Assembly: GCA_019704295.1 (NCBI GenBank)
Contig: AP024596.1
Location: 62,001 to 126,000, forward strand
Origin: Sulfolobales archaeon HS-7
GTDB taxonomy: Archaea; Thermoproteota; Thermoprotei_A; Sulfolobales; Sulfolobaceae
Reading direction: 5' to 3'
Length of the DNA stretch: 64,000 nucleotides
The position numbers and the translations under genes were made by a program. A model generated the notes under the pieces. It did no database searches and was not told the origin of the DNA. It was given only the letters and a program-made list of their open reading frames with translations. Positions 3,220-56,271 of this stretch are shown here, one piece after another (within the stretch, counting starts at the first letter, position 1; every line of letters begins with the position of its first letter).

Positions 3220-3617
3220 TATGTCATTTTGAAATAAAGTTAGGGGTAATTCACGTCTCCTTTGCGAGTTTAGTTTATTTCATGGAACATAACAAATCTA
3301 ATTCAATGCTATCGCAATGACTGAGGGGATTTATGCTTAGTTAGACCTTGAGGGTAAAGGGAAAAATCTCTTATAAGGCACTGCATAACACGTCCTTCTC
3401 TGGGGAATACTAGGAATTATGGTTTGGAATGCTTATTACGTAGAAGCTAATCACCTTGGTTTTTATGGTCTGACAAAGTATAGATTTAGAAATTTATTAT
3501 GTTTTATCTTTCTTTCTCAATTTAATTTACAATAGAACCTGAATAGCCAAAGTTAAGGGACATTCAATGAGGAATTCTTGAAAACCAATTTTTAGTTAGG
3601 ACTATTTATTGTGCCAT
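3220..3617. other. Intergenic stretch, holds one TIR element
   Basis: About 400 bases between divergent genes with no supported coding region. The middle (3332-3482) is a short element with 29-bp terminal inverted repeats, listed separately. The rest is A+T rich and should contain the promoters of the ClC gene (minus) and the FAD oxidoreductase (plus); I see no clear TATA box immediately upstream of 3618. Confidence 0.6.
3332..3482. repeat. 151-bp TIR element (MITE-like), copy 1
   Basis: A non-coding element bounded by imperfect inverted repeats of about 29 bp: the left end starts TATGCTTAGTTAGACC and the right end, read in reverse complement, starts TATACTTTGTCAGACC. The left ~95 bp resemble 33752-33850, including a shared GGCACTGCATAACACG block. 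No target duplication is evident. It looks like a deletion derivative of the element at 33752-34020. Confidence 0.7.
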
Positions 3618-13228: not shown

Positions 13229-13872
13229 TTAACTGGAAACGGAAACCTTTCCATTCTATAGGAACTATCCCAAAAAAGATATTCATAAACTGACGCAATT
13301 CTGAAATTTCTCAGTACACGACCAAAGTCGTCCACCCTTAGCGAGTTCATGAGGTTGATGACTTGTTCTACAGATTCCCTATAAGAGGTCGCGGAGTAGT
13401 TGTTTATCCACCTTTGATACACGGGATTTGGCGAACCGTCCCTTGACAGTTCCTCTCCAACCTTCATGTAAATCACGTAACAAGGCATTATTGCGGCTAA
13501 GGCCTGGGGAAGAGGGGATAGCTGAGTTTCAGCAAGGAGAAAGTTCGTATAAGCTAGATTAGTGGGAGACATGTCCCACTCCTCAGGTTCTACCTTCCAA
13601 TTAGCAATGTAAAATATGTGAAGCTGTCTTTCCTCTGAAAGCGAGGCTTCGACGTGCTTTATGAGTTTTATCATCCACTCGTATTCGCATTTATTAGCTA
13701 CGTTTAGAACGGCCCTCCCAAAACTCTTCAGGTAGAGGTAGTCTTGAAGTATGTAAAACCTAAACCTATCCTCCGATAAGGAGCCCTCCCTTAATTCAGC
13801 GATAAAAGGGTGGAAAAGTATTTTCTCGTATATATCTTTAACGTGATCCCACATCACCTGAAAATTTTCCAT
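13225..13872 (-). CDS. tenA: TenA/PqqC-like thiaminase II family protein
   Basis: TenA-family protein, normally a hydrolase salvaging the aminopyrimidine moiety of degraded thiamine. Visible active-site features: Asp44 in LQDYLYLK and Cys131 in AAIMPCYVIYMKVG, the Cys that marks the TenA_C subclass; a C-terminal Glu sits in ASVYEYLFW. Length 215 is normal. It is the first gene of an operon with Mod and Res (4-base overlap with Mod), an odd partnership since no thiamine gene is near. A TATA-like CATTTAAAAC lies about 20-30 bases upstream of the start, supporting a leaderless operon transcript. Confidence 0.85.
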   Translation of the reverse strand: MENFQVMWDHVKDIYEKILFHPFIAELREGSLSEDRFRFYILQDYLYLKSFGRAVLNVANKCEYEWMIKLIKHVEASLSEERQLHIFYIANWKVEPEEWDMSPTNLAYTNFLLAETQLSPLPQALAAIMPCYVIYMKVGEELSRDGSPNPVYQRWINNYSATSYRESVEQVINLMNSLRVDDFGRVLRNFRIASVYEYLFWDSSYRMERFPFPVK

Positions 13873-13904
13873 AATCGGAGTAAGTTACATCAGTTTTAAA
13901 TGTT

Positions 13905-14906
13905 TTAGGGAGTGACGAGAATTTTACCTACTCTACTTGGTTCGTGAAGGGAGTTAAGACCTTCCTTTACATTCGCCAGAGGAACTTCCTCACCGATAAT
14001 GGGGGTTATTTTTCCAGACGCCTCAAGTTCCATTGTCTCCCTCACGTCTGCAGAAGTTACAGAGGCATTTCCCACGAACTTAATATCCTTTAGTATGAGG
14101 GAGCCAAATCGAATAGGGGCTGACGACGACGGATCCAGATTTCCCACCTGTAGAATCGAGCCCCCTGCTGAAATCGCCTTTACGTTTTCGAAAAACGTCT
14201 GTACGCCCACTGTGTCTACTATTAAAGTAACGTCCTCCTTTTTGATCTGTTCCGCGTATTTCTCTCCCACCACGACTAAGTCCGAGAACCTTTTAACGAC
14301 TCTTGCCTTTTCCTCGCTTCTCACTTGAGCTATTACCCTAGCTCCTAATGCTTTGAGGAGTTGTACGGCGTGAATTCCAACTCCGCCCGCTGCGCCCGTA
14401 ACTAAAACCGTTGAGTCTTTCACATTAGGGGAGGATCTCTTTACACCCCTGTATATCATTGCAGTAACACAGGGAGTTATTACGGCTAATTCGTCTGTTA
14501 AATTCGTGGGAACTCTAACTGCACTTTTCGCACTTATCGTTGCGTATTCGCTGAAAAAGCCATCCAATTCCTCAGAATAGCCTAACTTATTTCTGCAGTA
14601 ATTCTCAAAGCCTAATTTACACTTATCACATGTCATGTCCGGTGCATATAACAGGGAGACAACTCTATCTCCTGGAGTAAAGTTCGTCATTGAACCGGCC
14701 TTAACAACCTCGCCTACCATTTCATGACCCAGAATTACGGGATACTTCATTCTAGGATAATATCCCTCTAACTGAAGGAGATCCCTATAGCAAATAGACG
14801 CTTTCCTTACTTTTACGAGAAGCTCGTCGTTATTAGGACTCCTTATAGGTACGTCAGTTACTTCCAATTTTCCGCGTTCCTTAACAACAGCTGCTAACAT
14901 ACCCAT
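13905..14906 (-). CDS. Zn-dependent alcohol dehydrogenase family; probable acryloyl-CoA reductase
   Basis: A medium-chain dehydrogenase/reductase closely resembling, from memory, the Metallosphaera sedula acryloyl-CoA reductase of the 3-hydroxypropionate/4-hydroxybutyrate CO2 fixation cycle (acryloyl-CoA + NADPH to propionyl-CoA). Shared features: CYRDLLQLEGYYPRMKYPVI, GHEMVGEVV, a structural zinc Cys cluster CDKCKLGFENYC, the stretch LGYSEELDGFFSEYA, and the nucleotide-binding VTGAAGGVGIHAVQLL. Length 333 fits. No other cycle gene is adjacent. It could be a paralogue with another enoyl-CoA or alcohol substrate. Confidence 0.82.
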   Translation of the reverse strand: MGMLAAVVKERGKLEVTDVPIRSPNNDELLVKVRKASICYRDLLQLEGYYPRMKYPVILGHEMVGEVVKAGSMTNFTPGDRVVSLLYAPDMTCDKCKLGFENYCRNKLGYSEELDGFFSEYATISAKSAVRVPTNLTDELAVITPCVTAMIYRGVKRSSPNVKDSTVLVTGAAGGVGIHAVQLLKALGARVIAQVRSEEKARVVKRFSDLVVVGEKYAEQIKKEDVTLIVDTVGVQTFFENVKAISAGGSILQVGNLDPSSSAPIRFGSLILKDIKFVGNASVTSADVRETMELEASGKITPIIGEEVPLANVKEGLNSLHEPSRVGKILVTP

Positions 14907-15418
14907 CTCGCAAATTTACTTTAAGTTATGCATCCTTAAGTCTTTCTGAATCCTAAACATCGTAATGAGGAAATTAGTCCCTTCCTTCACGGGGGCTTAT
15001 GGTAATAGTGTGCTAGGTTACAAGTTTCTATAGAGAATTGGGGTTAAGGGGACGTAAAGCCTTTGCCTTTTTAAGGCTGGATTGATAGCCCCTTTACATT
15101 AATATATCCCCTTTATTGTTTTTCAGTGACGTTAACGACGCTCCTTCCGGGCTCCATTAAGCGTTTAACGGGACTGAGGGAGGGGCACTTATCATTTCTC
15201 TTTCTTTCACGGGGATCCAGAGGCATTCTATGACAGATCCCCACTTTCCATATGGGAATGGGTTTCTGTCCCGCTTGACTGACCACTAAACGAGATGTAA
15301 CACCAAATCGATAGTGGGAACGATGAGCCCTCTGGGAGGGAACCCTTGGCCTTCAATGCAAGGAGGAAGTCAGACTAGATCCTGAAGCTCTTAAACTCCT
15401 CATTAAAAAACATTGAAT
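14907..15418. other. Gene-free stretch with stem-loop repeat and possible IS relic
   Basis: About 510 bases without a supported gene. It contains one copy of the GATAGCCCC stem-loop family (15041-15100). The part from about 15180 to 15400 is G+C-richer than typical intergenic DNA here. It ends in an open stretch (GTLGLQCKEEVRLDPEALK, 15327 onward) that reminds me of the 3' part of IS605-type orfB genes, but that resemblance is weak. Confidence 0.4.
15041..15100 (+). repeat. GATAGCCCC stem-loop repeat, copy 1
   Basis: AAGGGG at 15046-15051 can pair with CCCCTT at 15089-15094, enclosing a second perfect hairpin (GCCTT 15065-15069 with AAGGC 15073-15077). The TTAAGGGG and GATAGCCCCTT blocks are shared with copies near 22020, 34610 and 55790. 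Confidence 0.5.
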
Positions 15419-17371
15419 ATGAAACTTGTTATTACTGAGAAGCCTAGTGTTGCGATGGACATAGCTAGGGCACTTAATGCTACGTCGAAAGGTGATGGTT
15501 ATCTCTACAACGACGAATACGTGATAACTTGGGCTTTAGGTCATCTATTTAACATTGACGACTCAATAGCACCGGCAAAGTGGGACATTAAATCCCTTCC
15601 TATTTTCCCGGAGAAATTTTCTTACTCATTAATACGAGGAAAAGAAAAGCAGTTTAAGGTTATCCGATCCCTCCTATCCAAATCCGAGGTAGTAATTAAC
15701 TGTGGTGACGCGGGGAGAGAGGGCGAACTTATAATAAGGGAAATCCTGAGAGAGGCAAATTACGTCGGTAAGGTGTTAAGGTTCTGGACGTCTGAAGCCC
15801 TAACCAGAGAGGTTATACATAGAGAGTTCGGAAACCTAAAACCCTCACAAGCCTTTGACGACCTGTACTATAGTGCCCTTGCCAGGCAGCAGAGCGATTG
15901 GTTGGTTGGGATAAACCTCACTAGGTTAATAACGTTAAGGGCAGGAGGTAGGGAGGTCTGGAGTATAGGAAGGGTTCAGACCCCTACCTTAAATATAGTT
16001 GTAATGAGGGATAAGGAAATAGAGGAATTTAAGCCTCAGGTATACTACGTGGTCAAGGCTGAATTTGAGGGATATGAGGGAATACTCGTAAAAGATGGGA
16101 AGATATTACAGTTAACTGAGGAAGATGCTGACAAGATAGTACGGGGTCTTTCAAAATACAGTACGGGGATAGTGGACTCAATTAACGAAGAACTTCATTC
16201 AGAACCTCCCCCTTTCCTACACTCCCTTACATCTCTTCAGCGAGAGGCTAATACGGTTTACGGAATTTCCGCTCAAAAGACCCTGGACTCCGCCCAGAGA
16301 CTTTACGAGGAATTCAAGGTAATCAGTTACCCGAGAACTGATGCAAGGCATATGGGCGATGACGCCAGGGGATTAGTAACGAATGTGCTGAAGAAGCTGG
16401 GACTTGAGGAACTGATCCCCAACGTTAACAAGGTCGGGAAGAGAGTTTTCGACTCGTCAAAGTTAACGGATCACCACGCAATAATTCCGCTTGACGTCCT
16501 ACCTTCTAACGTGACGGGCATTGATAAAGAGATTTACGATCTAATCCTGAGGAAATTTAAGGGTGTATTCATGCCCGACCATAAATTCGTTGAGAAAAAG
16601 CTGATTACTCAAGTGGGAGGATTTGATTTCCTAACTGAGGAGAAATTTGATGTTCAAATGGGATGGATGTCGCTATATAGAAAACCTACTATGTCCACTC
16701 TCCCCACACTAAGGAGGGGAGATTCCGTAAGGATTAGGCGGATATACAAGGAGAAGAGAACGACCAAACCTCCCCCTAGATTTAACGAGGCTTCGCTACT
16801 GAGGGAAATGGAAAAGCTCTCTTTAGGGACTCCGTCTACAAGGGCTTCTATAATTGAGACTCTATTAAGGAGGAAATACATCGTGAGGAGAGGAAAAACC
16901 CTGTACTCTACACCTAAGGGGAGGGAGGTGATCTCTAAACTCGGAGAAAGTAAGTTAGCAGATCCCTCAATGACAAGCGAGTGGGAAAAAGAGCTTGAGG
17001 CGATCTACATTAAGAAAATGGGTGAGGAAGGACACAGGGCTTTCCTGAAGAAGATCAAGGAATTCGTTAATCAGGAAATGAAAAGGCTGATAACCGTTTC
17101 CTTTACTTATGAAGATGAGGTTAAGCAGCTAAGGTGTTTTTGCGGGGGAGATGTAAAGTTCGTTAATGGGGTATGGAAGTGTGAGAGATGTAATACTTCA
17201 ATCAAAGAGTATATCTTAGGTAAGAGGCTTACCGAATCCCAAATAAGGGGGTTGTTTGAGGGAAAGAGGGTTAAAGTGAGCGGTTTACGAAGTAAGAAGG
17301 GTAAAAAGTTTTCCGCTACGTTATTTCTGAGTGAGGGTAAGTTGAAGTTCGATTTCAGTAAAAAATCGTAA
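15419..17371 (+). CDS. DNA topoisomerase III (type IA)
   Basis: A type IA topoisomerase that relaxes negative supercoils and resolves single-stranded junctions by cutting one strand. It has an N-terminal TOPRIM domain (TEKPSVA at residues 6-12 and GDAGREGEL at 96-104), the catalytic tyrosine in VISYPRTDARHM (Tyr304), and a C-terminal zinc ribbon with CFCGG and CERC. The 650-residue length agrees with Sulfolobus topoisomerase III. No reverse gyrase helicase domain is present. ATG 15419 is preferred over the in-frame TTG at 15413 because the family begins MKLVITEKPS. The deacetylase-like gene follows 26 bases later. Confidence 0.92.
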   Translation: MKLVITEKPSVAMDIARALNATSKGDGYLYNDEYVITWALGHLFNIDDSIAPAKWDIKSLPIFPEKFSYSLIRGKEKQFKVIRSLLSKSEVVINCGDAGREGELIIREILREANYVGKVLRFWTSEALTREVIHREFGNLKPSQAFDDLYYSALARQQSDWLVGINLTRLITLRAGGREVWSIGRVQTPTLNIVVMRDKEIEEFKPQVYYVVKAEFEGYEGILVKDGKILQLTEEDADKIVRGLSKYSTGIVDSINEELHSEPPPFLHSLTSLQREANTVYGISAQKTLDSAQRLYEEFKVISYPRTDARHMGDDARGLVTNVLKKLGLEELIPNVNKVGKRVFDSSKLTDHHAIIPLDVLPSNVTGIDKEIYDLILRKFKGVFMPDHKFVEKKLITQVGGFDFLTEEKFDVQMGWMSLYRKPTMSTLPTLRRGDSVRIRRIYKEKRTTKPPPRFNEASLLREMEKLSLGTPSTRASIIETLLRRKYIVRRGKTLYSTPKGREVISKLGESKLADPSMTSEWEKELEAIYIKKMGEEGHRAFLKKIKEFVNQEMKRLITVSFTYEDEVKQLRCFCGGDVKFVNGVWKCERCNTSIKEYILGKRLTESQIRGLFEGKRVKVSGLRSKKGKKFSATLFLSEGKLKFDFSKKS

Positions 17372-17397
17372 ATACTCCTTTCTCCACAATACGACTA

Positions 17398-18375
17398 TTG
17401 AAGGTCGTATTCGATCAGATATACCTGAAACACGATCCCATATTCGAGCACGTAGAGAATTCTAAAAGAGCCGAAATTGTCCTGAAGACTTTAAACGAAT
17501 TCAACCCCGAGATCATACCACCCATTAAGATCGACGTCAAGGAGATCTACACAATTCACGACCCAGAGTACGTCGAGATGATAAGATTAAAAAGCAAATT
17601 GGGGGACGACATCGATCCCGACACCTACACAAACGCCTATACTTTTGAGGCTGCGCTGAGCGCATTAGGAGGAGCGCTAACAGCGTATGAGAACTCAGCT
17701 ATAGCTATGCTTAGGCCTCCAGGTCATCATGCCGGTATAAGAGGATGCGCTCTTGGCGCACCGACACAGGGTTTCTGCATATTCAATAACATGGCTTTTG
17801 CGGTTTCCAAGAGGAGGGAAAAGAGAATTGCGATTGTCGATTTCGATGTTCATCACGGGAACGGGACGCAGGAGATATTTTACTACGACCCAAATGTTCT
17901 TCATATTGATATTCACCAATCGCCCCTGTATCCAGGAACGGGCAGCGTTTTCGAAAACGGAGGGGGAGAAGCTAAGGGAACAAAGGTTAATATCATCCTC
18001 CCTCCACTGTCATCTGATGACGTTATGGATGACGTTTTCCCAATCATCGAGGAGATCTTATCCGAGTTTAATCCTGAGGTTATGGCATTTTCAGCGGGAT
18101 TTGACGGATACGTAAATGACGGTCTCGCTGAATTAGCTCTAACCGAAAAGACCTTTTACAGATACGGACTTTTGGGAAGAAAAATGAAGAACTTCGTCGT
18201 AATCGAGGGAGGATATTCTATAGGACTTGAAAGGGGGTTAAGGGCCTTTGTACAAGGACTTCTTGGCATCCAAGAGGACTATAAGGGCGGGAAGACCTCC
18301 CCTCCTGTAAGGTCGAGGTTTGAACAAAACCTAAAGGAGTTTAAGGCTATATACTCTAATTATTGGGGTGTGTAA
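17398..18375 (+). CDS. Histone deacetylase / acetoin utilisation (AcuC-like) family protein
   Basis: A zinc-dependent deacetylase of the arginase/HDAC fold; archaeal members are proposed to remove acetyl groups from lysines or polyamines. Active-site motifs: RPPGHHAG (tandem His), GFCIFNN, VDFDVHHGNG (zinc Asp and His), FSAGFDGY (second zinc Asp), and EGGYS near the end with the normal HDAC order. The length, 325, is typical. The start is TTG at 17398, since MKVVFDQ aligns with the family. The stop overlaps the next gene's GTG by 8 bases, so the two are probably co-transcribed. Confidence 0.9.
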   Translation: MKVVFDQIYLKHDPIFEHVENSKRAEIVLKTLNEFNPEIIPPIKIDVKEIYTIHDPEYVEMIRLKSKLGDDIDPDTYTNAYTFEAALSALGGALTAYENSAIAMLRPPGHHAGIRGCALGAPTQGFCIFNNMAFAVSKRREKRIAIVDFDVHHGNGTQEIFYYDPNVLHIDIHQSPLYPGTGSVFENGGGEAKGTKVNIILPPLSSDDVMDDVFPIIEEILSEFNPEVMAFSAGFDGYVNDGLAELALTEKTFYRYGLLGRKMKNFVVIEGGYSIGLERGLRAFVQGLLGIQEDYKGGKTSPPVRSRFEQNLKEFKAIYSNYWGV

Positions 18376-20143
18376 TGTGATCGCGTGTACGAGGGACTGT
18401 TACGATACCTGTGTATTCGATCAAAACTATAGACCAATAAGGGATTTCCCATTCAACGGATTTACATGCTCTAGGGGGAACAGCGACTTAAAACGCAATG
18501 ATCTCAATAGAGTTAACAATCCCGTAATTGAGGGAAAGGAGGTTGATCTGAAAACTGCAGTAACTTACCTGGTTAAGGAATTGAAGAAGACTAAAATAAG
18601 TGAGGTAATTCACGTGGATTACGACGGAAATCAAGGACTATTAACGTGGTACTTTCCCGCAAGGTTATGGAACGTCCTTGGGGCTGTAACGACCGATTAC
18701 TCGATATGTAGTTCTGAAGGTCATAAGGCCCTTTCAATGCATTACGGAACTAGTTTCGGAGCATTACCAGAGGACTTCGCCAATCAGAAGGCATTTGTCT
18801 TCTGGGGTTCGGAGGCTTCAGTAAGCTTCATTCACGGATGGTTTTTAGCTAAGGATAAGTATAAGGTCACTATAGACGTTAGAATAAGCGAAACGGCGAG
18901 GAAAAGCGATAGGTATTTCATAATTAAACCATCGAGTGACGCCTATCTGGCTGTGGGTATAATCAAACTTCTTTCTAAAAAGTTCAAGATTGATGATAAC
19001 CTGCTCAATTTCGTAGAAAGGTTTTCTATGGATCAAATAGTCTCAATCACCGGCCTTTCAGAAGGTGAGATAGAGGAGATAGCAGGGATATATTCAGAGA
19101 TGTCTCCCCTTACGGTGTTGGGATTCGCCCTGGGAAGGACTTTAAACGGTGGAGAGGCGATAAGGCTTATCTCCTTAATAAGTCACATAATAGGTAAGGG
19201 AAGAAAAGGTTTCTTCTACTCTAACACTTACGGCTGGGGAATCGATTTCGATTACTTAAGGGGGACTCACGAACACAGTCCGTCAAGGGTTGTGGGAATG
19301 GCAGAGGTAGGAAAGGAGGTTGAGGAAGGTAAATTAAAGTTCATGTTCGTATGGAACTCCAATCCGATTCACTCCCTACCGGGCGCTGACAGAATCGTTG
19401 ATGCCGTAAGGGAGGGAGGACTTTTCCTTGTGGTACATGACCCATTCTGGTCTGAAACCGCAAAGCTAGCTAACGTAGTTATTCCCGCCTCGACTTTCCT
19501 TGAGAAACATGACGTGGTTTACAGCTATTGGCATCAGTTTTTAGTTTACAACGCTCCAATAAGGCAACCTAAAGGCGTAACCGAAGTAGAGCTAATGAGA
19601 GAAATTTCAAAGGAATTGGGAATTAACGAGAGATGTTTAACCGAAGACGAATGGGATGCGATAGATTATGCCATTAGGAATACTGGCGTCACTTTAACTC
19701 AGTTAAAGGAAAAGGGTCTAGCCAAAATGATCCCTCATTATCTAGAGAAGTTTTCGATAACTCCTCTGCCAGAGAAGCTGATCCCTCCTGAGGAAAAACT
19801 TCTCGTCTATGGAGGGCATCCCAATTACACGAACTCCCAATTTAAGGAGATCTATGGGGATAGGGAAGCAGTTATATATAATTCCGAATATGAGGGGGAG
19901 GGATATCTAATTACGGAAAAAGGGGAGGTTAGAGTTACTTTTAGGAAAGGAAACTTACCTAAAGGCGTATTCTTTGCGTACAAGAACTTCTTGTTTGATA
20001 AGGAGGGCAGGCCGATCAATTCTCTGTCAAGCTGGGAAAAGGGGAAGTATGGGGGCACTCCGTTACTTAACTACACTAAGATAATTGGGGTAAGAATTGA
20101 AGAAAGGAAAGAAGAACCGAAAATTGTTGGAGATTCTCTATAA
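18368..20143 (+). CDS. Molybdopterin-dependent oxidoreductase, DMSO reductase family
   Basis: A bis-molybdopterin oxidoreductase with an N-terminal [4Fe-4S] site: CTRDCYDTC followed by CSRG about 35 residues on. It resembles the formate dehydrogenase/assimilatory nitrate reductase branch. The cofactor-binding middle and the C-terminal dinucleotide-like domain (about 490-570) are present. At 591 residues it is shorter than most (650-900). No FeS or membrane partner gene is near, so the electron acceptor and substrate are unknown. A GTG start at 18368 overlaps the upstream stop; a second GTG at 18377 would leave the Cys cluster intact and is equally possible. Confidence 0.85.
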   Translation: MCNVIACTRDCYDTCVFDQNYRPIRDFPFNGFTCSRGNSDLKRNDLNRVNNPVIEGKEVDLKTAVTYLVKELKKTKISEVIHVDYDGNQGLLTWYFPARLWNVLGAVTTDYSICSSEGHKALSMHYGTSFGALPEDFANQKAFVFWGSEASVSFIHGWFLAKDKYKVTIDVRISETARKSDRYFIIKPSSDAYLAVGIIKLLSKKFKIDDNLLNFVERFSMDQIVSITGLSEGEIEEIAGIYSEMSPLTVLGFALGRTLNGGEAIRLISLISHIIGKGRKGFFYSNTYGWGIDFDYLRGTHEHSPSRVVGMAEVGKEVEEGKLKFMFVWNSNPIHSLPGADRIVDAVREGGLFLVVHDPFWSETAKLANVVIPASTFLEKHDVVYSYWHQFLVYNAPIRQPKGVTEVELMREISKELGINERCLTEDEWDAIDYAIRNTGVTLTQLKEKGLAKMIPHYLEKFSITPLPEKLIPPEEKLLVYGGHPNYTNSQFKEIYGDREAVIYNSEYEGEGYLITEKGEVRVTFRKGNLPKGVFFAYKNFLFDKEGRPINSLSSWEKGKYGGTPLLNYTKIIGVRIEERKEEPKIVGDSL

Positions 20144-21947: not shown

Positions 21948-22004
21948 AATAGTTTACTTACAATAGGATTTTTACGATTATGGTTATCCCATATCATTTC
22001 CCTC

Positions 22005-22117
22005 ACCTTTAACTTAATTGGGTTAAGGAGGCGAAAGTCCCCTTCCATGAGGATAGCCCCCTTATAGGAGGGTTTTTGTATTCATATGTCAAAATTTTCT
22101 TAGACCTTGGCTGAAAG
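22005..22117 (+). repeat. GATAGCCCC stem-loop repeat, copy 2
   Basis: Aligns along about 100 bases with 34590-34713. AAGGAGGC (22025-22032) pairs with GCCCCCTT (22056-22063) at 7 of 8 positions. The same CCCTT can instead pair with the following GAGGG (across an ATAG loop), which is followed by TTTTT. The shared tail TCAAAATTTTCTT follows. Confidence 0.6.
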
Positions 22118-22166
22118 AACTGGGACAGTACCATCGGGACTGGGGGAACTCAAGCCCCTGGAGAGA

Positions 22167-22388
22167 AAACCCTTCATAACCTATCTTCTACATGGGCATC
22201 ACAGAATGGTTCCAATCGATTGAACTTACGTTGTGGGTGAATGGAGATCATGTCTCTGAGAAGCAGGAAATCGCGATGCGGAGATACTTCGTCCGTGATG
22301 CTGGGGGTACTCTAAAGCATTTTCTACATTTAGCGATTTATTCCCTTCCTTCATGTCTTCTTAAACGTGTTTAACAAATGAAGGGTTT
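22167..22388. repeat. 222-bp unit bounded by an 11-bp inverted repeat
   Basis: AAACCCTTCAT at 22167-22177 is the exact reverse complement of ATGAAGGGTTT at 22378-22388. The inner sequence is non-coding as far as I can tell. It may be a MITE or decayed insertion element; no second copy was found by eye. Confidence 0.4.
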
Positions 22389-22427
22389 CCATTACTAAAC
22401 AAGAGGTATAAAAAGGAGAGAGAGGGT

Positions 22428-23533: not shown

Positions 23534-23905
23534 ATGTCGTTAACTAATATAGAGAAAATAAAACTCCCTGGAGGAAGAGAGGTGAGCATTAATGAATTGC
23601 TTTCCTTCATTTATGGTGTACCTAAAGCTGATATAGAGATCCTGAGAATTATAGAGAAGAAGGGTAAGGCCACTACCGATGAAATATCTGAAATGTTGAG
23701 GACTACTAAACCCTCAGTGAGTAAGTCGTTAAATAACCTGGTCAAAAAGGGACTTATTGAAAGAGAAAAGTTAAGGGACGGCACCAGAAGGGGAAGACCT
23801 GTGTTTATATATAAGGTCTCATCAAATCTACTAGACGAGAAAATCATTGCCGATCTTAATCAGGTAACCTCTGATATAAGGGAGAAATTAAAAAAAGCTA
23901 ATTAA
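23534..23905 (+). CDS. Winged-helix transcriptional regulator (MarR/TrmB-like)
   Basis: A 123-residue DNA-binding protein. A winged helix-turn-helix spans about residues 30-100: ILRIIEKKGKATTDEISEML, then TTKPSVSKSLNNLVKKGLIE (recognition helix) and a basic wing RDGTRRGRPVF. The short helical tail would be a dimerisation arm. No ligand domain is visible. It may control itself and pirin through the inverted repeat upstream; this is inference. The stop overlaps the convergent membrane gene by 4 bases. Confidence 0.82.
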   Translation: MSLTNIEKIKLPGGREVSINELLSFIYGVPKADIEILRIIEKKGKATTDEISEMLRTTKPSVSKSLNNLVKKGLIEREKLRDGTRRGRPVFIYKVSSNLLDEKIIADLNQVTSDIREKLKKAN

Positions 23906-24390
23906 ACTTCTTTTTTTCTGTAAAGTAAACTTCTCAATATTAAGTAGGCCAAAAACAGCCCACCGAAAAGCATGAGCAGTTCTGATGTAATCACAATAGC
24001 GTAATTTCCATATTCCTCAGCATAGGCTTCCCCGGGGGACGCTAGAATTAAACTGACGAGGACATTTTGAGTAGGACCAGCGTAGACTAATGAGTAGTTA
24101 CCTACTGATAAATAGACAAAGGGAGGGGGAAGAGTCAGGTTAGCCTCTAATTCACCATTTTTATATAATAGAATGTTCCCATCACTTACGTTAATGTACA
24201 TAACCATAACCCTTGATATGGTTACATTAAGCGAATACAATACAGTCCCATTAGTTAGCGTTACAATCCTCTTGTTTCCCAAAAGTTGATGTTCGAATGT
24301 AAAGTAGTATGGCGTTAAATACGGAGTAAGGACAAATAGAGTTAGTCCTATCGCAAAAATTAGAAGAGATGAAATGATTTTCTTATCCAC
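23902..24390 (-). CDS. Hypothetical membrane-anchored extracytoplasmic protein
   Basis: Not recognised. The 162-residue product has an N-terminal hydrophobic helix (about residues 5-28, signal-anchor-like), a beta-rich middle with several N-glycosylation-type sequons (NGT, NVT, NVS, NLT), and a C-terminal helix (about 132-156) followed by YRKKEV. The topology implies an outside-facing domain held at both ends. This layout is common among Sulfolobales surface proteins. Confidence 0.65.
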   Translation of the reverse strand: MDKKIISSLLIFAIGLTLFVLTPYLTPYYFTFEHQLLGNKRIVTLTNGTVLYSLNVTISRVMVMYINVSDGNILLYKNGELEANLTLPPPFVYLSVGNYSLVYAGPTQNVLVSLILASPGEAYAEEYGNYAIVITSELLMLFGGLFLAYLILRSLLYRKKEV

Positions 24391-24618
24391 TTAATACTCT
24401 TTTAGGCAGGGCAATATAAATTAAGATGTTACTGTTAACTTGCACTTTTACCATTGTCATGACGGAGGCTTTACGATAAATATGTCGATTGAACTTACGA
24501 CATTGTGCTAGCAAAGATCACCACATAAAGGGTAATGTATGTGCCATAAGGAAGAATTAGGCCATTAAAACATTCACCTTAATTGGGGAACTTAAGGATT
24601 GGGATGTATAGATCCTTA

Positions 24619-24630
24619 TGCTTAAATATG
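24619..24630 (+). promoter_or_regulatory. BRE/TATA element ahead of the candidate RNA
   Basis: TGCTTAAATATG is a near-ideal BRE plus TATA box. Transcription would start about 25 bases on, near 24651, with no protein start following. Confidence 0.5.
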
Positions 24631-24650
24631 GGTCCTTACTAAACTACTAA

Positions 24651-25085
24651 TAACAGCCATTGAGGTAGTCGCAGAGACGACCTAGGGAGAACTTTAGTAT
24701 ACCTCGGCTCCGCTCGAGTATCATTGAGAACATAGTGAAAGTAAAATAGTAGTGGTACTTAGTATCGGTAGAGTTACCTGGGCAAGACGAGTGGGCGCGA
24801 AATCCTGTCCGTAGGATAGGTAGCAGTTATTGGAGAATGACATATATCTCGAAGGCGTCGTATATCACAGCTGGACTTTGACCGATTAGGATCGTAAGGA
24901 GGTTACGCGACCTCTGTTAGATAGGTAAAATACTATAGTGGAATCCCTACCATACAAAATTCATTCCAGCAAAGGCAGAAATGTGTGAGGCTACGCTACA
25001 CGGTTCACCTGTCGCATGACGCAAAAATCCGTTAAAGCGCAACGTCTCTGAGGAGATGATGCACGATCCTTGGAGACGTCAAAAA
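24651..25085 (+). ncRNA. Candidate structured non-coding RNA, family unknown
   Basis: The stretch is richer in G+C than most gene-free DNA here and holds several strong local stems: GTCG/CGAC at 24668-24681; CCTGTCC/GGATAGG closing a GTA loop at 24804-24820; GAGGT/ACCTC at 24899-24914; and ACGTCTC/GAGACGT at 25042-25079 with an inner AGGA/TCCT stem. I looked for SRP RNA and RNase P RNA signatures and did not see them. It could instead be a decayed insertion element. Confidence 0.32.
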
Positions 25086-25132
25086 CTCTTACGCTGACTG
25101 ATGAGGAATGAGGTGATCTCTGAATGGTGATG

Positions 25133-27856
25133 TCAATCAATCCAGTATTTCCTATTCCTAATGAAGTTCCTCTCAGCATCCAATAGGGTCTTATAAAACG
25201 CATCCTCCCCTTGGGAGAGCTTAGATAACATCCTACCCATGTTGTGAGGTCCAACCCCAGGCGTAACGAAAGCCACAGCAGCTAGCTTCCTATACGTCGA
25301 GAATAGCGAAGAAGTAATCTTTATTTCCTCAATTTTCTCTCTCTCCTCTTTATGTAACTTTCCATTTGTCTTAACCTTGTCCAAGAGCTTTTTATCGATC
25401 GTGTCCTCAGGCTCGTGAAGTGATAGGAATACGGAGCCGCACTTGGGGCATTTCTCAGGTACATCCTTCACCTTAAATACGCTGTTCCAGTAACATATGC
25501 TACATAAAAGCTTGACACTTCTCTGCTGCAGCTTTCGTTTAAATATTTCCAGCATAAAGGGTTCACCACTATCACGAACCATTATTTTCTCTAGGAACTG
25601 CTTTGAGAGCGGAGAGGGGTCAACAGTTTCAACAACGGCAAATTTCCACTTCTTTACCTCAGTAAAGACGTTAACGTCATAGCTGTACTTCTCGAGCTCA
25701 TTAACTGCCTCCTCACCTATTATAGTATTAACGTACGCGTCGAGCATCGTTTTAGTAATCTTTACGTTGGCGTCCTTGTCTATTGCTCCAAACCTTATAG
25801 CCTCGGTTACTATCTTCCACTTATACTGAGGACTGTTAATTATGGCCTTTCTCAACCACCCCCTTAATACTTCCTCTGAATTCTGCGTAAGGAATTCCAG
25901 AGCCTGTTCCACATCATTCTTCGATATTAGGTAGGGGGACGCAATGGCTATGTGGTAAGCGTCAGATCTATATGTAACTCTTCCCCCAGTTCTGTTTAAG
26001 AGAAAGAGGGAAATCAATGCACCTATTGTGTTGTTTCCCCTAGTCCCCATGGGGAGGTTAATGACAACTAAACCACCTTTTAATACCTCCGTCAACGCCG
26101 TATCCTCAGCAGGACTTGGAAATCCCCTTCTCCTCAACTCGGCAAGCATTTTGTTTATTTCCTCCTTTACTTTTTCGTCTTGAATATCCGAACTCGCTAT
26201 AAATCTCCTGTAAACTTCAGTTGCTACCTGAATCTCTACAGGTATCGTCTCTCCATACCATGAGGGGAGATGTCCTGACGAGGTCTGAGTTCTCTCTAAG
26301 AAGACTTTATCGTTCTCTATACTTATAACTCTCCATAACTTTCCGCTAAGTACTATTACGTCGTCCTCGGAAAGCGTGGAGACGAAGTCCTTATCTAGAG
26401 TGCCTATTTTCTGGTCACTAACCATGTCAATTGCCAGGAAATTCGACGAGCTTTCAGGTATCATTGAGACAGAAAAAGCGTACTTCCAGATTCTTCTAGA
26501 CTTACCTAGTTTTCCATTCTTTTCCGATATTATGTAGGCCGACTTTAGGAACTCCACGACATTCATGAACCTCTCATACTCTAAGGTCCTAAAGTAAAAG
26601 GACTTCCTTACGATATCATATATTTTCTCAGGTTCTGAATACCCTTCCATTACCATAAGCGCTATTTGATGTGCAACTACGTCAAGCGCATCTTCTTCCG
26701 TTATTGGCTTCTCGAGTTTTCCCTCCTTTGCGAAGTCGGTTATCACAATACACTCTACTACGTCCTCTACCTGACTTGTCGGCACAACCACACCATTAGG
26801 CACCTTTTTAAAAAAATGACCGCTTCTCCCAACCCTCTGGATTAATCTTAATGCCTGTCTTGGGGACGAGTATTGTATCACAGTATTTATTGTTCCTACG
26901 TCTATACCAAGCTCAAGGCTGGATGTGGCCACTAAGGCGTCTAGTTTGCCTGCCTTAAACTCCTTTTCTGCGGAAACTCTCACATCTCTTGATAATGAGC
27001 CGTGATGAACCTCAACGTTTAACTTGAATAAATTTCTCAAAACATTGGAGAGGTACTCCGCAGTCTCCCTTGTATTAGTAAATAGTAAAACAGGTTTCCT
27101 TGTCCTAATGATGTCACTTATGTATTTAACCCTAGCGTAGGTTTCAGGACTTAAACCGCTCTCTACGACCTTATCTACTTCCTCCCCGGGGTTAGGAATT
27201 GCCACTTCTATTTTCATCTCCCTTGATATGTTAACTAACGCTATATCAACGTCTCCCTCAGGATGGAGGAAATGCTTTGCCGCTTCAATTTCTCCAATAG
27301 TAGCTGAAATCCCTATTACCTGAATCTTCTGTTTCGCTCTTATCTTAAGCCTTTCAACGGCTATTGACATTTCGTATCCCCTTTTATCGTCAAGCATTTC
27401 TTGAACTTCGTCTATTATGAGCCACCTTACGTTGGACAAGTATTCCCTTAGCTTCTGATTTATTAGCAGGAACTCAAAAGTTTCAGGGGTGGTGATCAGG
27501 AGATCCGGAGGTTCTTTCTCTATACGCCTTCTGTCTCTCTCAGTTGAATCTCCGTGTCTAACTCCTACAGATACTCCGAAAGCCGATGCTATTTTCGTTA
27601 ATCGTACCTCTATATCTCTGTTTAACGCCCTAAGTGGAGTTACATATATGCCAGATATCTTCTCAGGCCTTTCTATTAGAATTTCCGTGAATACAGGTAT
27701 TACCGCCGCTTCGGTTTTCCCGAATCCTGTAGGGGCCACTATTAACGTGTTCTTTCCGCTGAGAACCTTAGGTATGGCTATCTTCTGGATCGGCGTTAAC
27801 TCGGTGTAGCCCAGCAATTTCATTCTAGTTGCTAATATTTCCAACGTCTCCTGCAT
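25133..27856 (-). CDS. Lhr-type SF2 DNA/RNA helicase
   Basis: A large helicase of the Lhr family, in archaea linked to DNA repair or recombination. N-terminal RecA domain: APTGFGKTE (Walker A, about residue 41), TPLRALNRD, TTPETFEFLL, the box II variant DEVQ (usually DEVH or DEIH), and SATIGE. Second RecA domain: LFTNTRETAEYLS, TSSLELGIDVG and QRVGRSGH. A long C-terminal Lhr region follows, with a zinc finger made of CSIC and CPKCG near residue 790-815. At 907 residues it matches archaeal Lhr2-like proteins. It is divergent from the HerA-like ATPase with only 40 bases between. Confidence 0.88.
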   Translation of the reverse strand: MQETLEILATRMKLLGYTELTPIQKIAIPKVLSGKNTLIVAPTGFGKTEAAVIPVFTEILIERPEKISGIYVTPLRALNRDIEVRLTKIASAFGVSVGVRHGDSTERDRRRIEKEPPDLLITTPETFEFLLINQKLREYLSNVRWLIIDEVQEMLDDKRGYEMSIAVERLKIRAKQKIQVIGISATIGEIEAAKHFLHPEGDVDIALVNISREMKIEVAIPNPGEEVDKVVESGLSPETYARVKYISDIIRTRKPVLLFTNTRETAEYLSNVLRNLFKLNVEVHHGSLSRDVRVSAEKEFKAGKLDALVATSSLELGIDVGTINTVIQYSSPRQALRLIQRVGRSGHFFKKVPNGVVVPTSQVEDVVECIVITDFAKEGKLEKPITEEDALDVVAHQIALMVMEGYSEPEKIYDIVRKSFYFRTLEYERFMNVVEFLKSAYIISEKNGKLGKSRRIWKYAFSVSMIPESSSNFLAIDMVSDQKIGTLDKDFVSTLSEDDVIVLSGKLWRVISIENDKVFLERTQTSSGHLPSWYGETIPVEIQVATEVYRRFIASSDIQDEKVKEEINKMLAELRRRGFPSPAEDTALTEVLKGGLVVINLPMGTRGNNTIGALISLFLLNRTGGRVTYRSDAYHIAIASPYLISKNDVEQALEFLTQNSEEVLRGWLRKAIINSPQYKWKIVTEAIRFGAIDKDANVKITKTMLDAYVNTIIGEEAVNELEKYSYDVNVFTEVKKWKFAVVETVDPSPLSKQFLEKIMVRDSGEPFMLEIFKRKLQQRSVKLLCSICYWNSVFKVKDVPEKCPKCGSVFLSLHEPEDTIDKKLLDKVKTNGKLHKEEREKIEEIKITSSLFSTYRKLAAVAFVTPGVGPHNMGRMLSKLSQGEDAFYKTLLDAERNFIRNRKYWID

Positions 27857-33714: not shown

Positions 33715-33751
33715 ATGTTAAAGATGTTTTAAGGAGATTTATTTTCTCCAT

Positions 33752-34020
33752 TATATTTAGTCAGACCCTGAGAGTCAAGGGAGATCTTTCATGTGGCACT
33801 GCATAACACGCCTAACTATGTGGTACACTAGGAATCATATTTTAGAAGGCACTAGATGCTTCGCCTCTAACACGACAGTGGGAACATTAAGTCCAGAACG
33901 ATGCCTACATTAACAGCGTAGTGAATCGCTATCTCCATTCCTAGTGTTATGTGTTTTCCCCGCGGAAGGTTTATCATATACAAAGTAAGAACCTTGGTTT
34001 TCAAGGTCTGACGAAGTATA
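33752..34020 (-). mobile_element. 269-bp insertion-element relic with 29-bp TIRs, copy 2
   Basis: The ends are imperfect inverted repeats of about 29 bp (left TATATTTAGTCAGACCC; right, reversed, TATACTTCGTCAGACCT). The left part matches the 151-bp element at 3332-3482. The inner part (about 33840-33980), read on the minus strand, resembles segments of the transposase relic at 42723-43010, for instance the TTTTCCCCGYGGAAG block. Frames are broken by stops. Confidence 0.68.
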
Positions 34021-34083
34021 ACTAAAGAGACTCAAAATCGAAAGACTTTTGAGGTAAGCATTGTGTAAACAATAAGGGACAAA

Positions 34084-34094
34084 CCTTTTAAAAG
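34084..34094 (+). promoter_or_regulatory. TATA box of the 34114 DsrE-like gene
   Basis: CCTTTTAAAAG is centred about 25 bases before ATG 34114, giving a leaderless transcript. It lies 64 bases outside the TIR element. Confidence 0.5.
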
Positions 34095-34113
34095 TTTAGA
34101 AGGAAGGCACTAT

Positions 34114-34476: not shown

Positions 34477-34947
34477 TAATGAGATAGTTTTTCCTTTCCT
34501 GTAATCAGATAATCCAACAAGGAGTTTTTCAGTAAAAGTTCCACTCCTCTACTTCAAAATGTCTGACTGCGGAAAATCTATACATTTAACGCTTTCAACC
34601 TAATGAGGGATTAAGGGGGCAAAAGTCATCTTCCGTGAAGGAGCAGATGGATAGCCCCTTATAGAAGGGTCTTTATACTTCAATATCAAAATTTTCTTGA
34701 CCATAGCTGTAAAGGCTGCTAATAAGCTTATCTAACTCTAAGTTAAGTGTGTGGAGGACCTTTCGATCTGGACTGACATCCCATATACCTCTTCGAATTC
34801 TAAAGATCAACGTATCTCCCTCTACCTCCTTTAGCATTAACCGTGTTCAAAAATGATCTTGAGAAGGAGAAGTTTGGTTCTTTTAAGGTATGAAGATATA
34901 TATTTTAAGGACGTTAACTCTTTTTTAAACTAAGTTCACTATTCAGC
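34477..34947. other. Gene-free stretch with stem-loop repeat copy 3
   Basis: About 470 bases. Repeat copy 3 lies at 34590-34713. The remainder is A+T rich and unassigned, ending with TTTTTTAAAC (34921-34930) as a possible TATA element for the creatininase gene. Confidence 0.5.
34590..34713 (+). repeat. GATAGCCCC stem-loop repeat, copy 3
   Basis: AAGGGG (34613-34618) pairs with CCCCTT (34655-34660). The same bases can pair with the downstream AAGGG (34665-34669) over an ATAG loop. It shares its outer sequence and the TCAAAATTTTCTT tail with copy 2 at 22005-22117. Confidence 0.6.
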
Positions 34948-41347: not shown

Positions 41348-41702
41348 GTTTAATATAATTGATTAAAATTCCTTATAAGGCGGAGTACGAAGTGTTTTAA
41401 TAGATTTGCCTACTACTCATCTTACCTAGTTATGTTATATAAAGTGAGTGCCTCAGTATTTCCCTGAGGTCCTCTGTTTGATATCTCTAAGTATCTCCTT
41501 TTGGCTCTCCATCAAGTCAATCTCCATAATGTTGTAGATTTTATCACGTGTTCATTACGAATTTAGTTTATTTAGAAAAATAGAATGAATTTGATTGAAT
41601 GTCGTTGTGTGGACTAGGTAGAGATTCGCACTTAACAATTTCTTTTATTTAATTGCAATTTGCAATAATTACAATTCGCAATGGAAGCTGAATCGCCGCA
41701 CC
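41348..41702. other. Gene-free stretch with 135-bp MITE copy
   Basis: About 355 bases. The last 150 bases before the Mrr gene's stop codon are a MITE copy (41551-41685). The rest is A+T rich with no supported gene. Confidence 0.55.
41551..41685 (-). repeat. 135-bp MITE, copy 1
   Basis: Ends in imperfect inverted repeats (TTCATTACGAATT and, reversed, TCCATTGCGAATT). By hand alignment it is ungapped against the reverse complement of 56098-56232, with 20 differences in 135 bases (about 85% identity). The nearest gene is the Mrr-type nuclease, which ends 18 bases away. Confidence 0.8.
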
Positions 41703-55690: not shown

Positions 55691-55784
55691 GAAAGGATTA
55701 CCTCGTCAGGGCTACTTATATCCCTATTACTACTTTAGTCTATTTCCATTAATGGTTCAACCATATAGGTTCACGGTAATGGAA

Positions 55785-55810
55785 AATCAGGGGTAGATAG
55801 CCCCCTTTGT
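55785..55810 (+). repeat. GATAGCCCC stem-loop repeat, copy 4 (short)
   Basis: AGGGG (55789-55793) pairs with CCCCCT (55801-55806) over TAGATAG. The outer sequence shared by the other copies is not evident. Confidence 0.35.
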
Positions 55811-56097
55811 ACTAGTTTAAGTCGGTTCGCAACCAGTATATCAATGACATTCATCGACGGGGTAAGCGTTACCAAGATACCCAAGCGGGGGTCTATGTGG
55901 CATACTTCTGCTCCAACTAAAGTCCCATATAGAACATTGCCTTTAATTTCGGACTACGACCCTCAGGACCTCTTTACCTCTTGGATAATACGATGCTACG
56001 AAGCAGGAAGCCTCTTCTAGGGCGTAGTGAGTTCACATTTTGCGTATTATGATTCGCAAAAAACCCTTAACTGCACTAAATAAGACCGATTCAGGTT

Positions 56098-56232
56098 TCC
56101 ATTGTGAATTGTAATTATTGTAAATAGCGATTAAATAAAGGAAATTGTTAAGAGTAAATCTCTACCTAGTTCACACGATGGGACTCAATTAAATTCATTC
56201 TATTTTTCTAAACAAATAGAATTCGCAATGAA
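56098..56232 (+). repeat. 135-bp MITE, copy 3
   Basis: The intact partner of 41551-41685 in inverted orientation: same length, about 85% identity, ends TCCATTGTGAATT and (reversed) TTCATTGCGAATT. It lies 39 bases before the upsX start, so the upsX promoter may be inside or next to it. Confidence 0.8.
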
Positions 56233-56271
56233 CGCGTGAATGGCCCCTAGATAAATACGAATACAGTTTCA

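Follow-up and report, generated by a model that had tools for sequence, protein, structure and literature searches.

The question about positions 24619-25085 is whether a strong promoter motif followed by local stems marks a gene for a structured RNA. The initial annotation proposed an RNA gene of a family it could not name, or a worn mobile element. The organism, HS-7, comes from an acidic spring (65-68.5 C), has a genomic GC content of 39.6% and carries a 16S rRNA less than 88% similar to that of every type strain of the order (PMC8459659). It represents a novel genus of Sulfolobales. The genome is one contig of 2,151,177 bases, of which a 64-kb stretch, here called the window, was analysed; coordinates are those of the window unless another stretch is named. 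The region lies in an intergenic gap of 742 bp (24391-25132), between the genes of a 162-aa protein and an Lhr-type helicase (Table 1).

All the features that had been listed for 24619-25085 are indeed there. The sequence TGCTTAAATATG (24619-24630) had been called a near-ideal BRE/TATA. The TATA half of this description stands, since no site on either strand of the window scores higher against a fixed consensus TATA matrix, but the BRE half does not, the TTATG in front being weak. The stem closing a GTA loop and the GAGGT/ACCTC pairing (24899-24914) are present, and the ACGTCTC...GAGACGT stem is in fact 13 bp long, with two G-U pairs. The region is also non-coding, as proposed: a coding signal is absent from every frame, and none of its open stretches matches Pfam. 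A decayed ordinary gene was rejected on the codon signal, Pfam and a six-frame read-through search in sampled HS-7 sequence. Phage or plasmid DNA was likewise rejected, the whole region being without a match.

If 24651-25085 were a real gene for a structured non-coding RNA, about 430 nt long, belonging to an unnamed family and transcribed from the TATA box at 24621, this would agree with the unsurpassed TATA box, with the three local hairpins, and with a GC content of 45.7%, above the intergenic mean of 36%, in DNA that lacks a coding signal. This GC content is equalled or exceeded in a number of other long HS-7 intergenic stretches. The fold stability, however, is not that of a real HS-7 RNA. 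As a whole the region does not fold clearly better than chance (z -1.4, with 7 of 100 shuffles as stable). For the + strand, the folding energy gives z -1.76 at 37 C and -0.58 at 75 C; the controls at the same two temperatures were the RNase P RNA of HS-7 (-3.75 and -4.85) and its SRP RNA (-8.24 and -5.73). Two of the hairpins reach z -4.3 and -3.9 when folded in isolation, but these were chosen after the fact. Moreover, the + strand has no terminator-like T5 run before 25389. The two T5 runs of the gap lie on the - strand, where they might be expected if the helicase transcript ends there.

Searches for RNA relatives gave little. No Rfam covariance model matches the region at its gathering cut-off; a permissive threshold was also tried, and a known RNA family was rejected. 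Signatures of SRP or RNase P RNA had not been recognised in the region, and both identities were rejected, as the two genes lie elsewhere in the genome (SRP RNA at G000:C1 2127485-2127789). In blastn searches of 30 genomes of the family the sole convincing match was 25093-25132. Missing blastn matches weigh little for the rest of the region, since the RNase P RNA of HS-7 was itself largely missed in the relatives, with just two matches under 0.005 outside HS-7 among these genomes. A syntenic RNA gene in the relatives was rejected as well. In most of them the 3' flank of the helicase is occupied by short genes that form a conserved set rather than by an RNA, and the relatives of the 162-aa neighbour are mostly about 60 bp from another gene. 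With the 5' part accounted for by a mobile element that would have brought both the promoter and a hairpin, as described below, an RNA gene of an unnamed family is not supported and appears very unlikely.

By blastn the candidate region appeared to be single copy in HS-7, a result that nhmmer overturned. The sample searched combined the window with 16 stretches of 20 kb from HS-7. It is rich in long intergenic regions (a crude gene call gives 96 that reach 350 nt), and those of the sampled stretches share diverged repeats. With nhmmer the candidate was linked to 13769-13982 of stretch L080 (E 1.4e-5), a link missed by blastn, and this segment belongs to a dispersed repeat family of about 290 nt. 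A six-copy profile built without the candidate detects 24591-24810 (E 4e-4). When 30 family copies were used as single queries in nhmmer, six matched the candidate, all on one strand and in one register (best E 6.8e-6, from the copy in L118). The controls for these searches (400 dinucleotide shuffles, 97 control segments and the reversed sequence) gave no match. Plain intergenic DNA with chance stems and a spurious resemblance to the family might explain why the candidate is absent from the results of two broader models, one a profile of 30 copies searched with E up to 10, the other the 8-copy model R1 searched with E up to 1. It does not sit well with six matches in the same register, against none from shuffles or control segments, or with both ends and the promoter lying where the family predicts them, and is very unlikely indeed. 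The two misses are better read as the mark of an outlying copy. We consider 24578-24831 to be a diverged, transposase-free copy of a tnpB-derived (PATE-like) element of HS-7, with a probability of roughly 0.85.

Other repeats were seen along the way. A sequence-only eight-copy model finds 92 matches to the family across the HS-7 genome (E up to 1). The window contains a well-kept copy of the tnpB-derived element at 55765-56040 (+, 175 bits), and weak matches to the family left end only at 15038-15101, 22006-22064 and 34592-34661 (all +, E 0.003-0.013), which are possibly other subfamilies or remnants. Four family matches follow one another in tandem order over 2.3 kb at G000:C1 2124440-2126724, near the SRP RNA gene. 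Another dispersed repeat, roughly 155 nt long, is found at about 41544-41698 and 56087-56246, and eight or more further copies (74-86% identical) lie elsewhere in the sampled HS-7 sequence. Diverged repeats are also common to the intergenic segments 3220-3608 and 33715-34113, and likewise to 21948-22427 and 34477-34947; these repeats recur elsewhere in HS-7. A long CRISPR array with the repeat GTTTCAAGCCCTCATAGGAAAGCTACAAAC occupies 15552-18697 of stretch L084 (G000:C1 about 1445552-1448697).

The origin of the family can be read from its ends. The 3' end of the consensus is GTGAAGCAGGAAGCCCCTTCTGTCAGGAAGGGGTGAGTTCAC, which reads in frame as VKQEAPSVRKG-stop, and two plasmids, pNOB8 and one from S. 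tengchongensis, carry a tnpB whose 3' end the consensus matches. Pfam/NCBIfam searches with the consensus peptide gave no significant match. Three tnpB genes of HS-7 are intact, and its genome also contains many broken pieces of tnpB; two of its TnpB proteins are 71-75% identical to that of pNOB8, and the third is more distant. The first 90 or so positions of the repeat match the DNA just upstream of one intact tnpB gene (L123), palindrome and promoter included, and the last 110 or so match the tnpB 3' end and the right end of the same element. As both ends match L123, the repeat is a left end plus a right end with most of tnpB gone, and with a middle part not accounted for by either end. In the family, the left end comprises TTTAT, the palindrome and the tnpB promoter, and the right end the last tnpB codons, the stop codon and a hairpin. 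TTTAT precedes many family copies, and is found at the left ends of the solo-tnpB elements of S. islandicus, in which the 3' end of tnpB holds a putative gene for omega-RNA (PMC10640517). In Haloquadratum, transposase-free derivatives have been named PATEs (palindrome-associated transposable elements), and some apparently came from core deletion of IS605-type transposons (PMC3119063). Judged by its ends, the HS-7 family is a transposase-free, PATE-like derivative of an IS200/IS605 tnpB element, which HS-7 also has in intact form. The family as a conserved structured RNA was rejected, RNAalifold giving only a weak 11-pair consensus from nine copies. Taken copy by copy, the end hairpins are no more than mildly better than shuffles (mean z -0.7 at the right end and -0.6 at the left).

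The candidate has the palindromes and promoter at the places predicted from the family (Table 1). Its predicted promoter at 24621 corresponds to the left-end promoter of tnpB, and the stem with the GTA loop at 24804-24820 to the right-end hairpin. The worn mobile element of the initial annotation was thus the right choice for the 5' part of the region. Near-terminal palindromes are represented by AAGGAT/ATCCTT and CCTGTCC/GGATAGG. The ends of a tnpB-bearing IS605-type element are recognisable in the family through L123, and in the candidate through the six single-copy matches and the aligned ends. At 254 bp, with no open frame or coding signal, the copy is too short for a transposase. The target motif TTTAT does not precede its left end; TTCAC stands there instead, which we read as decay, and hence we call the copy worn rather than intact. 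The copy is far from the family consensus over the part that matches the tnpB 3' end. Both of its end stems are paired, with letters unlike those of the family, so that some of the divergence may date from a time when the lineage could still move. Membership in the family, the link to intact tnpB elements and the order of the parts are established at the level of sequence.

Table 1. Features in and beside the gap 24391-25132 (window coordinates).
Feature	Positions	Strand	Basis or remark
162-aa protein gene	23902-24390	-	divergent neighbour of the gap
TTCAC, where TTTAT precedes the left end of many family copies	24573-24577	+	alignment of ends
Probable worn copy of the transposase-free element	24578-24831	+	nhmmer; boundaries from alignment with the intact and consensus ends
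Left-end palindrome AAGGAT/ATCCTT (family: AAAGGGGG/CCCCCTTT)	24594-24617	+	left-end alignment, fold
TATA box CTTAAATA, counterpart of the TTAAATA that precedes tnpB in L123 and also stands in the family consensus	24621-24628	+	predicted promoter
Right-end hairpin CCTGTCC-GTA-GGATAGG, corresponding to the hairpin around the tnpB stop codon	24804-24820	+	alignment, fold
GGAGGTT/GACCTCT-type stem	24898-24915	+	outside the element; z -1.4, 23 of 200 shuffles equally good
T5 run	25023-25027	-	possible terminator of the helicase transcript (inferred role)
13-bp hairpin with 12-nt loop	25042-25079	+	z -4.3 in isolation; origin unexplained
T5 run, about 50 nt beyond the helicase stop codon	25081-25085	-	possible terminator (inferred role)
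Predicted C/D-box guide RNA	25097-25132	+	kept in about ten relatives; Rfam sRNA models match weakly, short of their cut-off
C box TGATGA	25099-25104	+	in the C/D-box guide RNA
Guide ATGAGGTGATCT (12 nt, before CTGA)	25108-25119	+	in the C/D-box guide RNA
D' box CTGA	25120-25123	+	in the C/D-box guide RNA
C' box GTGATG	25127-25132	+	in the C/D-box guide RNA
Lhr-type helicase gene	25133-27856	-	convergent neighbour of the gap

In a transposase-free copy the left end, with its palindrome and tnpB promoter, is joined to the right end, which consists of the final tnpB codons and the hairpin at the terminus. Copies of this type can be mobilised solely in trans, through a transposase that acts on their end hairpins. 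The copy at 24578-24831 has lost TTTAT and most of its sequence identity, and is therefore very probably immobile. Its TATA box may start transcription near 24650, yielding at most a by-product RNA, and we infer that the worn copy is without function. Alternatively, the worn element might be transcribed to provide an omega-RNA-like guide for an intact HS-7 TnpB in trans, in which case some 20 bases following 24831 would form the guide. The family retains the tnpB 3' end, where S. islandicus encodes its omega-RNA (PMC10640517), HS-7 has intact TnpBs, and the copy has kept a predicted promoter and the right-end hairpin. But the copy is far from the consensus across the tnpB 3'-end part, so that the scaffold would be poorly kept, and this role is barely credible for it. 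The 90 or so elements of HS-7, which have kept the tnpB 3' end though not the gene, might together be dispersed guide RNAs serving the few intact TnpBs in trans, the worn copy being diverged and still transcribed. This, too, has very little chance of being right, and the worn copy is a poor example of the idea.

The worn element leaves 24832-25096 as intergenic DNA that it does not explain; nhmmer found no match for this segment in about 594 kb of HS-7 sequence. The 12-nt loop GATGATGCACGA of the hairpin at 25042-25079 (+) could, by eye, form a kink-loop with a GAT bulge and GA/GA pairs, and might bind L7Ae. An H/ACA-like kink loop at this hairpin, also seen by eye, was rejected because the pocket is too small.

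The blastn match to other genomes has a different source. At 25097-25132, C, D' and C' boxes and a guide are conserved in relatives, as is characteristic of C/D-box sRNAs, a known kind of guide for rRNA modification; a clear terminal D box was not found there. About ten Sulfolobaceae genomes carry the guide ATGAGGTGATCT followed by CTGA in a different gene neighbourhood; in several of them it comes directly after another C/D sRNA. Its complement, GATCACCTCAT, is what we take to be the 3' end of archaeal 16S rRNA. A search for the 16S gene in HS-7 found none, and the same search also missed the 16S gene of S. acidocaldarius. The segment is predicted to be a genuine, separate C/D-box guide RNA gene lying just beyond 24619-25085, and the RNA may extend into the antisense of the helicase end.

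Like the HS-7 family, the PATEs and core-deleted IS605-type transposons of Haloquadratum walsbyi (PMC3119063) are transposase-free, have near-terminal palindromes, ends like those of tnpB-bearing IS605-type transposons and a remnant of the tnpB C terminus, and occur as many diverged copies in a single archaeal genome. Unlike them, the HS-7 family resides in a Sulfolobales genome and has a middle part that its two ends do not account for, and the copy at 24578-24831 is heavily worn. With the solo-tnpB IS200/IS605 elements of Sulfolobales (S. islandicus, PMC10640517; the pNOB8 tnpB; L123 of HS-7) are shared a left end placed after TTTAT, a promoter upstream of tnpB, and a hairpin right end overlapping the tnpB 3' end, whereas 24578-24831 lacks the tnpB gene and the motif before the left end. 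The segment 25097-25132 resembles archaeal C/D-box sRNAs in its three boxes, its 12-nt guide before CTGA and its retention in other Sulfolobaceae, but falls below Rfam cut-offs, and is separate from the element. The candidate is like RNase P RNA and SRP RNA in its length class of a few hundred nucleotides and in a GC content above the intergenic mean, but not in fold stability.

A candidate new RNA family is thereby removed, and the locus illustrates how the promoter and end hairpins that a transposon copy inherits can mimic an RNA gene. In this novel Sulfolobales genus, some 90 transposase-free elements derived from tnpB appear to retain the omega-RNA-bearing end. The family would offer a good starting point for finding out whether elements of this kind supply TnpB with guides in trans.
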